Source: Muribaculaceae bacterium (lineage in GTDB: Bacteria > Bacteroidota > Bacteroidia > Bacteroidales > Muribaculaceae). From it: a stretch of DNA of 64,000 nt. The notes under the pieces are model-generated. The model was given only the letters and a program-made list of their open reading frames with translations. It had not been told where the DNA came from and searched no databases. Location: assembly GCA_022509165.1 (NCBI GenBank), contig JAFLTT010000008.1:62001-126000 (forward strand). The letters run 5' to 3'. Position numbers and translations under genes: made by a program. Positions 13,052-56,797 of the stretch are shown here, one piece after another; the stretch's first letter is position 1; each line of letters starts with the position of its first letter.

Positions 13052-14059
13052 ATGCCGGACAAATCACCTGCTTTCTCCATCATTGTACCGGTTTACAACC
13101 GTCCGCAGGAAGTGGAGGAACTTGTAAACAGCCTGGCTGATCAGACTCTTAAAGATTTTGAACTCGTGATTGTGGAAGATGGCTCTACCATTACCTGTAG
13201 AGACACTTGCCAAAAGTTTAGCGATCTAATCAACATAAAATATTACCATAAATCCAACGAGGGTAGAAGCATTGCCCGGAATTATGGAATGGATAGAGCC
13301 GACGGAGATTTTTTTATCTTCGTCGACTCTGATTGTATACTCCCCTCTGATTATATAGAAAACCTCCAAAAATGTCTTGCTGAAAATCCTACCGATTGTT
13401 TCGGAGGACCTGATACTGCCCATGAATCCTTTTCTGATGTGCAGAAGGCTATAAATTTTTCTATGACCTCTTTCTTTACAACGGGAGGTATCCGCGGAGG
13501 AAAGAAAAGTATGGAGAAATTCACACCTCGCACGTTCAATATGGGTTTCTCCAGAAAGGTATATGATACTGTGGGTGGATTTCGTGAAATGTTCAGTGAA
13601 GATATCGACATGAGCACACGGATCAAAAATGCCGGATTTAAGGTAGTTTTATATCCCGAAGTCAAGGTTTTTCATAAAAGACGTGTTAACTTTTCAAAAT
13701 TCTGGCGTCAGGTGCATGTGTTCGGGATGTCAAGAATCACTTTGCAACTGTTATATCCGGGCTCTATGAAACTGGTGCACTGGTTGCCCGCTTTATTCGT
13801 TATAATTGGATTGGGCCTGGTAATCGCTTCTTTCTTCAATTATTGGTTTCTAATTCCTTTGCTGGTATATTTTGTTGTGCTTCTGATTTCTGCTTTATAC
13901 ACCACGAGAAACCCCAAGATCGCTTTGTTGGCTATCCCGGCTTCTATAATTCAACTGGGAGGATACGGCACAGGTTTCATTCAAGCCTACGTATGGAAGA
14001 TTCTTCTTGGTCATGGCAGAGACTTAAATGATGAGATAGAACGAAGAAAAGGGAAATAA
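13052..14059 (+). CDS. Family 2 glycosyltransferase with C-terminal membrane helices
   Basis: A 335-residue inverting GT-A glycosyltransferase. The nucleotide-sugar binding start FSIIVPVYNRP (residues 8-18), the metal-binding DSDC at about residue 92, and the acceptor/base region MFSEDIDMSTRI around 190 are visible. Two hydrophobic helices follow (about 245-290), so the enzyme is membrane-bound and probably works on a lipid-linked or surface glycan. Starts 12 bases after efp and ends 11 bases before radC, so the three genes form an operon-like run. Donor and acceptor are unknown. Confidence 0.87.
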   Translation: MPDKSPAFSIIVPVYNRPQEVEELVNSLADQTLKDFELVIVEDGSTITCRDTCQKFSDLINIKYYHKSNEGRSIARNYGMDRADGDFFIFVDSDCILPSDYIENLQKCLAENPTDCFGGPDTAHESFSDVQKAINFSMTSFFTTGGIRGGKKSMEKFTPRTFNMGFSRKVYDTVGGFREMFSEDIDMSTRIKNAGFKVVLYPEVKVFHKRRVNFSKFWRQVHVFGMSRITLQLLYPGSMKLVHWLPALFVIIGLGLVIASFFNYWFLIPLLVYFVVLLISALYTTRNPKIALLAIPASIIQLGGYGTGFIQAYVWKILLGHGRDLNDEIERRKGK

Positions 14060-14070
14060 CAAATTTTATA

Positions 14071-55338: not shown

Positions 55339-55412
55339 GGTCCCATAGCTCAGTTGGTTAGAGCACCTGACTCATAATCAGGGAGTCCTTGGTTCAAGCC
55401 CAAGTGGGACCA
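55339..55412 (+). tRNA. tRNA with CAU anticodon (elongator Met or Ile2)
   Basis: All four arms fold: acceptor GGTCCCA/TGGGACC, D stem GCTC/GAGC, anticodon stem CCTGA/TCAGG with loop CTCATAA (anticodon CAT at 55373-55375), and T arm CTTGG/CCAAG around TTCAAGC. The discriminator is A at 55412, followed by an encoded CC, while the next base is T, so the terminal A of CCA is added by enzyme. Not the initiator, since acceptor pair 1-72 is an ordinary G-C. Choosing between Met and lysidine-modified Ile2 would need TilS identity rules. Confidence 0.93.
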
Positions 55413-55423
55413 CCTAAAAATCA

Positions 55424-55454
55424 AGCAGTTACTTCAATCGAGTAGCTGCTTTTC
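55424..55454 (+). terminator. Terminator of the intact tRNA (unit 1)
   Basis: AGCAGTTACT (55424-55433) pairs with AGTAGCTGCT (55441-55450), all pairs Watson-Crick except one G-U, then TTTTCGTT. Copied almost exactly after units 2 and 3. Confidence 0.8.
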
Positions 55455-55460
55455 GTTATT

Positions 55461-55516
55461 TAGAGCACCTGACTCATAATCAGGGAGTCCTAGGTTCAAG
55501 CCCTAGTGGGACCACC
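55461..55516 (+). pseudogene. 5'-truncated tRNA copy, unit 2
   Basis: Keeps the 3' half of the D arm, an unchanged anticodon arm with CAT, the T arm and acceptor 3' strand TGGGACCACC. It lacks the acceptor 5' strand and D-loop, so it cannot fold as a tRNA. The T stem is CTAGG/CCTAG where unit 1 has CTTGG/CCAAG: two changes that keep pairing, which suggests descent from a once-functional copy. Confidence 0.85.
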
Positions 55517-55526
55517 ACAAAATCAG

Positions 55527-55555
55527 GCAGTTACTTCAAAAGAGTAGCTGCTTTT
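55527..55555 (+). terminator. Terminator hairpin of unit 2
   Basis: GCAGTTACT (55527-55535) pairs with AGTAGCTGC (55543-55551), followed by TTTT. The loop differs from unit 1 (TCAAAAG). Confidence 0.75.
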
Positions 55556-55562
55556 CGTTATA

Positions 55563-55631
55563 TAGAGCACCTGCCTCTCCGTGCTCATATTCTGGCAGGG
55601 AGTCCTTGGTTCAAGCCCAAGTGGGACCACC
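55563..55631 (+). pseudogene. 5'-truncated tRNA copy with rearranged anticodon arm, unit 3
   Basis: Same 5' truncation as unit 2. The anticodon arm is 13 bases longer: CCTGCC pairs with GGCAGG around an 18-base loop containing GTGCTC, the inverse of the GAGCAC just upstream. The T arm and acceptor strand are identical to unit 1. Cannot function as a tRNA. Confidence 0.82.
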
Positions 55632-55640
55632 TAAAAATCA

Positions 55641-55676
55641 AGCAGTTACTTCAATCAAGTAGCTGCTTTTCGTTTT
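55641..55676 (+). terminator. Terminator hairpin of unit 3
   Basis: AGCAGTTACT (55641-55650) pairs with AGTAGCTGCT (55658-55667), then TTTTCGTTTTT. It differs from the unit 1 hairpin by one loop base. Confidence 0.78.
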
Positions 55677-55809
55677 TAAAACCTGTCTCGGTGCTCGGTT
55701 GCTGCGATCACCTGATTATGAGTCAGGCTGCCATTCACCAGCAAAATCCGCTGACCCAAAATCCGTTGATTCGTTTTTAGTTGATCTTGGTTAATGGATT
55801 TTATTCTTG
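55676..55809 (+). other. Decayed fourth repeat unit and lectin 3' flank
   Basis: ACCTGTCTCGGTGCTC (55681-55696) resembles the start of the unit 3 anticodon arm. CCTGATTATGAGTCAGG (55711-55727) is an exact inverted copy of the 17-base anticodon arm at 55366-55382. After it come two near-identical copies of CAAAATCCGYTGA (55742-55768) and an imperfect stem AAATCCGTT/AATGGATTT (55759-55801) that could terminate the lectin gene on the minus strand. Confidence 0.6.
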
Positions 55810-56607: not shown

Positions 56608-56797
56608 ATGTGAAGCAAACTCGCAGAGGTAGGTCAAACTCTTAGTAGTGGTGCAAACTACCAGTAGTTAGGCTAACTCTCAGATGTGATGCAAATTTTC
56701 AAATATGAAGTTAATTTTCAGATTATGTGAAAATTCTCTGGAATTGAAGGGATTTCCAAGAATTAAACACATTGTCTGGAGTGAACAGATTTTTAGG
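56608..56797 (+). repeat. Ten degenerate tandem 19-bp repeats
   Basis: Ten consecutive 19-base units fill 56608-56797. The best conserved are units 1-6, with a pattern near ATGTGAAGCAAACTCTCAG: for example unit 1 ATGTGAAGCAAACTCGCAG, unit 3 TAGTGGTGCAAACTACCAG, unit 5 ATGTGATGCAAATTTTCAA and unit 6 ATATGAAGTTAATTTTCAG. Units 7-10 decay. The period is not a multiple of three, so this is not coding repeat. Confidence 0.75.

Follow-up and report, generated by a model that had tools for sequence, protein, structure and literature searches.

Why should an intact tRNA gene be followed by several of its own 3' parts, each with a terminator? The question is raised by a tRNA-Met locus in a 64-kb stretch of DNA from a Muribaculaceae bacterium, referred to here, at its full length, as the window. 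An initial annotation, made from the letters of the sequence, described an intact CAU tRNA with 5'-truncated copies behind it and offered three origins: unequal crossing-over, repeated integration at the tRNA 3' end, or a locus that makes tRNA-like small RNAs.

The tRNA-Met locus and its truncated copies

ARAGORN calls a single tRNA gene in the window, tRNA-Met(CAT) at 55339-55414. Downstream of it, and in the same orientation, lie two tRNA 3' ends (units 2 and 3), followed by a remnant (Table 1). The tRNA gene (unit 1) and units 2 and 3 each have their own terminator-like hairpin, three in total, where shuffled sequences of the region give 0.6 (standard deviation, 0.7), in agreement with the initial description. 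The units adjoin directly, with no element body between the copies. The upstream neighbor encodes a SIMPL-domain protein, and the downstream neighbor, on the opposite strand, a ricin-type lectin-domain protein.

TABLE 1 Features of the tRNA-Met locus (positions within the window)
Feature	Position	Strand	Basis
Intact tRNA-Met(CAU)	55339..55414	+	ARAGORN; Rfam RF00005, 71.9 bits
Anticodon loop CTCATAA in the intact tRNA-Met	55371-55377	+	
Unit 1 terminator hairpin	55423..55451	+	
Unit 2, tRNA D arm to 3' end, normal anticodon loop, T-stem CTAGG/CCTAG	55461..55516	+	
Unit 2 terminator hairpin	55525..55553	+	
Unit 3, 5'-truncated tRNA with the anticodon loop replaced	55563..55631	+	
Unit 3 insert of 18 nt replacing tRNA positions 35-39	55578..55595	+	Pattern match 55567-55604; alignment of 16 Met-type units
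Unit 3 terminator hairpin	55640..55668	+	
Decayed remnant: insert-like stretch (by eye), then inverted anticodon arm	55678..55727	+	

Tandem Repeats Finder (TRF) reports the array at 55358-55678 with a period of 102 and a score of 441, the other five rows for the window scoring 50 to 93. The exact 102-bp period initially proposed holds for the unit starts, as marked by TAGAGC at 55359, 55461, and 55563, but not for the matched blocks, which are spaced 102 and then 115 because unit 3 has 13 extra bases in its anticodon region. In that unit, the five bases at tRNA positions 35-39 have given way to 18 bases. This replaced anticodon loop was absent from the initial annotation, and so was an inversion inside what it had called a decayed remnant: a remnant is indeed present, but the 17 nt at 55711-55727 reproduce the anticodon arm in reverse complement without a mismatch (100% complementary).

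Against the Rfam tRNA cut-off of 29 bits, unit 2 scores 28.0, a narrow miss, and unit 3 scores 18.4, compared with 71.9 for the intact gene. Neither unit is called as a tRNA by ARAGORN in the window. The truncated units are not tRNAs, as stated earlier; most likely, both are without function. The source assembly is a draft genome of 38 contigs, and the array might have been a product of misassembly, as the initial annotation had allowed. However, units 1 and 2 are mismatched at 8 of 102 positions, and given that the units differ among themselves, the array is not one repeat multiplied by assembly. When we scanned the loci of 30 of the 47 tRNA matches in the same genome, truncated copies were found behind tRNA-Met(CAU) only; Gly, Val, and Asn tRNAs have full second copies.

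Two other repeats lie nearby. A 38-bp tandem repeat (2.3 copies, 56610-56695) is located between the lectin-domain gene and a transporter-like open frame. The stretch at 55742-55769 contains AAAATCCGCTGACCC and a near repeat. The reverse complement of AAAATCCGCTGACCC, GGGTCAGCGGATTTT, occurs downstream of tRNA-Met copies in loci L019, L020, and L047; it is perhaps the end of an insertion sequence.

Integration at tRNA-Met and the proposed origin of unit 2

The tRNA and its trailer, used as a query, matched in 109 of 111 genomes of the same genus, related tRNAs included. Trailers and terminators behind tRNA-Met differ between lineages, and tyrosine recombinase genes follow tRNA-Met in genomes of this genus. 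At 14 of 43 surveyed tRNA loci, a long frame starts no more than 800 bp behind the tRNA. Ten of these frames have integrase-type domains; the remaining four comprise a sigma factor, two AAA-type proteins, and one frame without a match. The other 29 loci have no long frame behind the tRNA, with less than 1 kb of sequence at 16 of them, and six array loci (the window and five others) are among the 13 with at least 1 kb.

We further found 18 displaced 3' fragments that start at the anticodon loop, in 17 genomes of the genus. Seventeen of these sites, in 16 genomes, have at most two further tRNA bases upstream, and the last one, in G106, has only 9 bases of left flank. The 17-site count required an intact CTCATAATC and excluded sites whose left flank ends in CCTGA or TCTGA; by design, fragments starting earlier, in the D arm, are invisible in it. 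A recount that kept early starts showed that, besides unit 2 of the window, fragments in G047 (locus L040) and G141 (locus L199) start in the D arm; it also returned L043 and L047, both contig starts that do not allow a judgment. A degenerate fragment in G038 (L054, 12085) starts later than the anticodon loop, and one more short match, in G088, stands outside the fragment counts. In G056 and G099, apparently truncated copies stand at the very start of contigs; these seem to be contig overlaps and were discarded. Draft contigs of G085, G066, G067, G099, G102, and G076 stop at the tRNA-Met 3' end or a few bases from it, so that arrays of this kind are probably undercounted in short-read assemblies. 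Integrase-like genes lie beside the right ends in G004 and G065, identified by a SAM-like domain match only. Judged by these comparisons, the tRNA-Met gene is a hotspot of tyrosine-recombinase integration in genomes of this genus. This corresponds to the known mode of tRNA integration, as set out for Islander, in which the incoming island restores the gene (PMC4383910).

The alleles of the units connect the array with this process. Where units 1 and 3 have the T-stem CTTGG/CCAAG, unit 2 has CTAGG/CCTAG, two changes that compensate each other. Among the six genomes closest by upstream flank (G040, G047, G046, G043, G045, and G048; 73 to 76% identity), G043 and G045 have an intact tRNA-Met with the T-stem of unit 2, G046 and G047 have CTTGG, and G048 has GTAGG/CCTAC; in G040, the contig ends within the gene. 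In none of these six relatives, G040 with its incomplete gene included, did we see such an array or an insert-bearing unit. Compared over the 80-nt 3' blocks, units 1 and 3 are closest, with 2 differences, against 7 between units 1 and 2 and 9 between units 2 and 3. Such interleaved alleles are not the outcome of a simple run of duplications. Given that its T-stem allele is functional in two near relatives, unit 2 looks like a displaced former 3' end that once belonged to a functional gene.

As the leading account, we propose that an incoming element would bring a new tRNA 3' part and terminator into tRNA-Met. Comparison of the genomes suggests that the gene would stay functional through the 3' part supplied, and that the old 3' part, together with its terminator, would be pushed downstream. 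The array in the window would be a stack of such displaced ends, the element bodies between them having since been lost, with unit 2 as a former functional 3' end and unit 3 as an older one. The early start of unit 2 would derive from tRNA-like DNA at the right end of elements of its terminator family.

Elements with such right ends were found in two genomes. The tRNA and terminator of the window are 97% identical over 122 bp to those of G047, where an integrase gene follows. The right end in G047 lies on another contig than its tRNA-Met and seemingly belongs to the same family as that of G141, from another genus (g4), in which a body of 4.6 kb separates the tRNA from the fragment. The element regions of the two genomes have stretches of 72 to 75% identity in common; in G141, the integrase start is broken and the body includes a DUF3871 protein. 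In both right ends, a tRNA 5' part reaching to the D loop is followed by a hairpin of ∼36 nt, tRNA positions 21-31, and the loop; the stretches folded gave −15.3 and −21.2 kcal/mol. Between the two (L040, 9374-9489, in G047; L199, about 13990-14067, in G141), the hairpin sequence differs and the stem is kept. Because elements of the window's terminator family end in tRNA-like DNA, they can explain why unit 2 starts early: loss of a body of this type down to positions 21-31 would give unit 2. It is these tRNA-like right ends that make the loss of bodies our leading reading.

Several observations weigh against it. Across unrelated arrays, the join always links the terminator T-run, or the bases just after it, to the D loop or D arm, and independent losses would not be expected to repeat the same join. 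The D-loop hairpin of G047 and G141 is absent from the array units inspected, and its pattern is present in 1 of the 111 genomes of the genus. Moreover, the terminators of units 1 to 3 all belong to a single family, a pattern that duplication would also yield. We found no closely related empty site, the best flank identity being 76% without a syntenic close relative, and the 29 of 43 loci without a long frame behind the tRNA add to these difficulties. Finally, the insert of unit 3 is left unexplained. We thus regard a stack of displaced tRNA ends with lost bodies as a plausible reading that we hold tentatively, while integration in any of its forms, taken jointly, probably explains the array.

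Arrays and insert-bearing units in other genomes

A pattern based on unit 3 matched in 11 of the 111 genomes of the genus, the window's own counted, and not at all in the reversed control. Across 397 genomes of the family, it matched in 11, namely, 9 already known, G305 (g4, two units), and G225 (g16). A sequence model added insert-bearing units in G041, G060, and G072; G023 has a truncated one, and further Met-type units occur in G141 and G160 (g4). Within the genus, 15 of the 111 genomes have Met-type units. The insert is also found in a unit behind a tRNA-Lys in G069, in a Lys-like unit in G099 (judged by its arms), and in an Ile-like unit in G083 (judged by its D loop and T arm). Overall, insert-bearing units are present in 16 of the 111 genomes, the window included, and in four genomes of two other genera. 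This tally is probably an undercount, since in several genomes contigs stop at the tRNA or within an array. The initial annotation had named the absence of repeats from related genomes as what would speak against it; instead, 19 other genomes have insert-bearing units.

The insert has a consensus of about [AT]CC[GT]TGTCnATAnnTTGG, is 15 to 18 nt long, and lies between tRNA positions 34 and 40. The tRNA parts of the units match the host's own tRNA, and the insert is alike throughout. Examples are the ACAG/CTGT stem in G060, the ATCTG..CAGGGGG form in G041, and the T arm in G072, which is that of its own tRNA. Units start in the D loop or D arm, usually no more than a few bases from the previous T-run. 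We found no integrase-bearing element that ends in the insert, which is absent at the 17 loop-start right ends and in the rows of the recount. The insert of unit 3 is a second, recurring kind of join, outside the account of lost bodies.

Truncated units are stacked in the window and in G065, G090, G109, G305, G041, and G060. G062 and G065 each have, on a single contig, the tRNA, then a large stretch ending in a loop-start fragment, and then the array; in G070, fragment and array are joined in this way, and the tRNA lies on a different contig. From this order, the arrays in these three genomes are older than the insertion of the large stretch. In G041 and G038, the loop-start fragment lies beyond the units instead. 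G038 also has an AAA-ATPase-like gene (PF09820) between an insert-bearing unit and the degenerate tRNA 3' fragment (L054, 10510-12124), possibly a cassette with cargo. Loci L111 and L138 (G041:C24) have a run of N inside repeated units, and the array length there is not fixed by the assembly.

These arrangements bear on local tandem duplication, by slippage or unequal crossing-over, of the segment from D loop to terminator, followed by drift and gene conversion. Such a process would account for the constant junction of T-run and D loop, often GTTGG-TTAGAGC, for unit terminators that are often like that of the host tRNA (G109, G305, G041, and G060), and for unit tRNA parts that match the host's own variant (G041, G060, and G072). 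However, one array can hold different 3' alleles and terminators, as in the window, in the four-unit array of G090 with its three terminator types, and in G069, where, as in G160, the terminator behind the tRNA differs from that behind the unit. Furthermore, the last unit enters an element at its left end in two genomes, running into an integrase gene in G065 (L147, 5005-6369) and into a broken integrase start in G160, which has no other integrase-like frame there; behind the insert-bearing unit of G069, no integrase frame was found. Duplication would not produce the conserved insert either. We consider this origin unlikely, and plain unequal crossing-over, as first suggested, is insufficient. 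Integration scars with lost bodies fit better and are the best supported of the three origins proposed at the outset, given the integrases behind the tRNA in relatives, the loop-start fragments, and the unit 2 allele that is functional in relatives.

We also looked for the insert as a free motif. With a looser pattern, 15 of the 111 genomes of the genus had 17 matches between them (reversed control, 9); these include 7 known units, and the remaining 10, each of which was inspected, were taken as chance. In the 397 genomes of the family, a pattern gave 13 matches in 11 genomes (reversed control, 5). Eight of these are units; of the five attributed to chance, four were inspected and the fifth has matched letters identical to an inspected one. 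Outside the family, a Met-specific pattern, which other tRNA variants would escape, matched in none of 291 genomes. Phages had no match, two scans of viral contigs gave three matches, none beside a tRNA tail, and the one match among plasmid records is an ordinary Parabacteroides tRNA-Met. In the contigs of GTDB species, 25 stretches matched, of which 12 are in Bacteroidales-type records; the remaining 13 belong to other phyla and were taken, unopened, as chance.

The third origin initially suggested is a functional locus for tRNA-like small RNAs, in which the insert hairpin would stand in for the anticodon arm. In the alignment of 16 Met-type units, the ends of the insert are conserved and its center is variable, RNAalifold predicts a bulged hairpin, and a terminator follows each unit, all of which would suit an RNA product. 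Against this, none of the 16 predicted pairs has a two-sided change. By eye, pairing is lost in the Lys units, G305, and G072, and T-stems are broken in G305 and in two G060 units, while the left arm of the hairpin in G060 has changed along with the host's stem. A sigma-70-type promoter scan, the one promoter type covered, gave one weak site at chance level, on the opposite strand, and Met-type units are present in only 15 of the 111 genomes of the genus. We claim no selection on RNA for these units, and such a locus seems very improbable.

The hairpin also recalls integron attC sites, whose imperfect hairpins likewise have a variable loop and, on one arm, two extra single bases. The resemblance is confined to the bulged hairpin and variable loop; by eye, the units contain no attC core boxes, and there are no gene cassettes.

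Alternatively, the units could be gene-free cassettes of ∼100 bp, composed of tRNA positions 40-76, terminator, positions 15-34, and insert, that enter a tRNA near positions 39/40. The insert, 18 nt long and hairpin-forming, would be the element-side half of a recombination site, the cassette's own 3' end and terminator would restore the tRNA, and arrays would grow by single cassettes added at the tRNA. This would be an undescribed mobile cassette of Muribaculaceae, targeting tRNAs with a TGACTNNTAATCA-like anticodon arm (Met, Lys, and probably Ile). Consistent with it, a like insert occupies the same position in units behind tRNA-Met, tRNA-Lys, and an Ile-like tRNA, gene-free units recur in 20 genomes of three genera, and terminators vary within the G090 array (three types) and between tRNA and unit in G069 and G160. 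On the other hand, the insert is flanked on both sides by host-type tRNA, although a half-site needs no host-type left end. No circle, recombinase, or larger carrier was seen, and the insert was not found in viral contigs or in phage or plasmid records. Both the existence of such an element and this reading of the array strike us as doubtful.

Relation to known systems and implications

For tRNA-integrated islands, the Islander work describes a tDNA fragment at the far end of the island and rejects candidates below 2 kb (PMC4383910). The present locus has in common with the islands described there a displaced downstream tRNA 3' fragment, the anticodon-centered attachment class, and tyrosine integrases; it differs from them in that the window has no island body between copies and its units start before the loop. 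As to a start at the crossover, the 18 fragments in relatives begin at the loop, unit 2 of the window and the right ends in G047 and G141 begin in the D arm, and unit 3 is interrupted by the insert. With no element body between the copies and a mixed picture of the starts, we regard the array in the window as a variant of ordinary attR sites rather than a member of that class. Partial tRNA copies left by integration (attR) have also been reported as tRNA gene fragments misread as tRNA genes, associated with elements of about 9 to 23 kb (PMC9897764); the accessible text of that report describes no tandem units with terminators and no insert.

Another parallel is found in Dehalococcoides, whose islands are flanked by tandem ssrA direct repeats and were discussed as possible cis-mobilizable elements that undergo accretion, the insertion site being inferred from a 15-bp motif upstream of the repeats (PMC3146451). 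As here, several direct repeats lie behind one RNA gene, and some islands lack integration genes, as do the array units. The 15-bp motif, conserved upstream of each repeat and unmatched in the RNA gene, is comparable with the insert, and it was because the insert, a conserved motif directly upstream of a displaced repeat, resembles it in position that we considered mobile cassettes at all. Unlike that motif, the insert has tRNA sequence on both sides. The Dehalococcoides repeats are 20 bp long, the islands bear genes, and the recombinase is a serine recombinase, whereas the units here measure ∼100 bp and are free of genes. The window shares with accretion arrays its stacked units without recombination genes, which are putative attachment sites; by analogy, the array may work like an accretion of attachment sites at an RNA gene. 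In the literature searched, most subscription papers lying outside the search, we found no description of such arrays in Muribaculaceae.

If the leading account of integration scars with lost bodies is true, the arrays would record, in readable form, how integrations followed one another at a single tRNA gene, and would show how tRNA 3' halves, with their terminators, are exchanged between strains. If the insert-bearing units can move on their own, they would be integrative cassettes of exceptionally small size. With another origin, the insert would be a conserved motif in the anticodon loops of different truncated tRNAs whose cause is not known. What most deserves to be followed is the insert that recurs in the anticodon loops of the truncated units.
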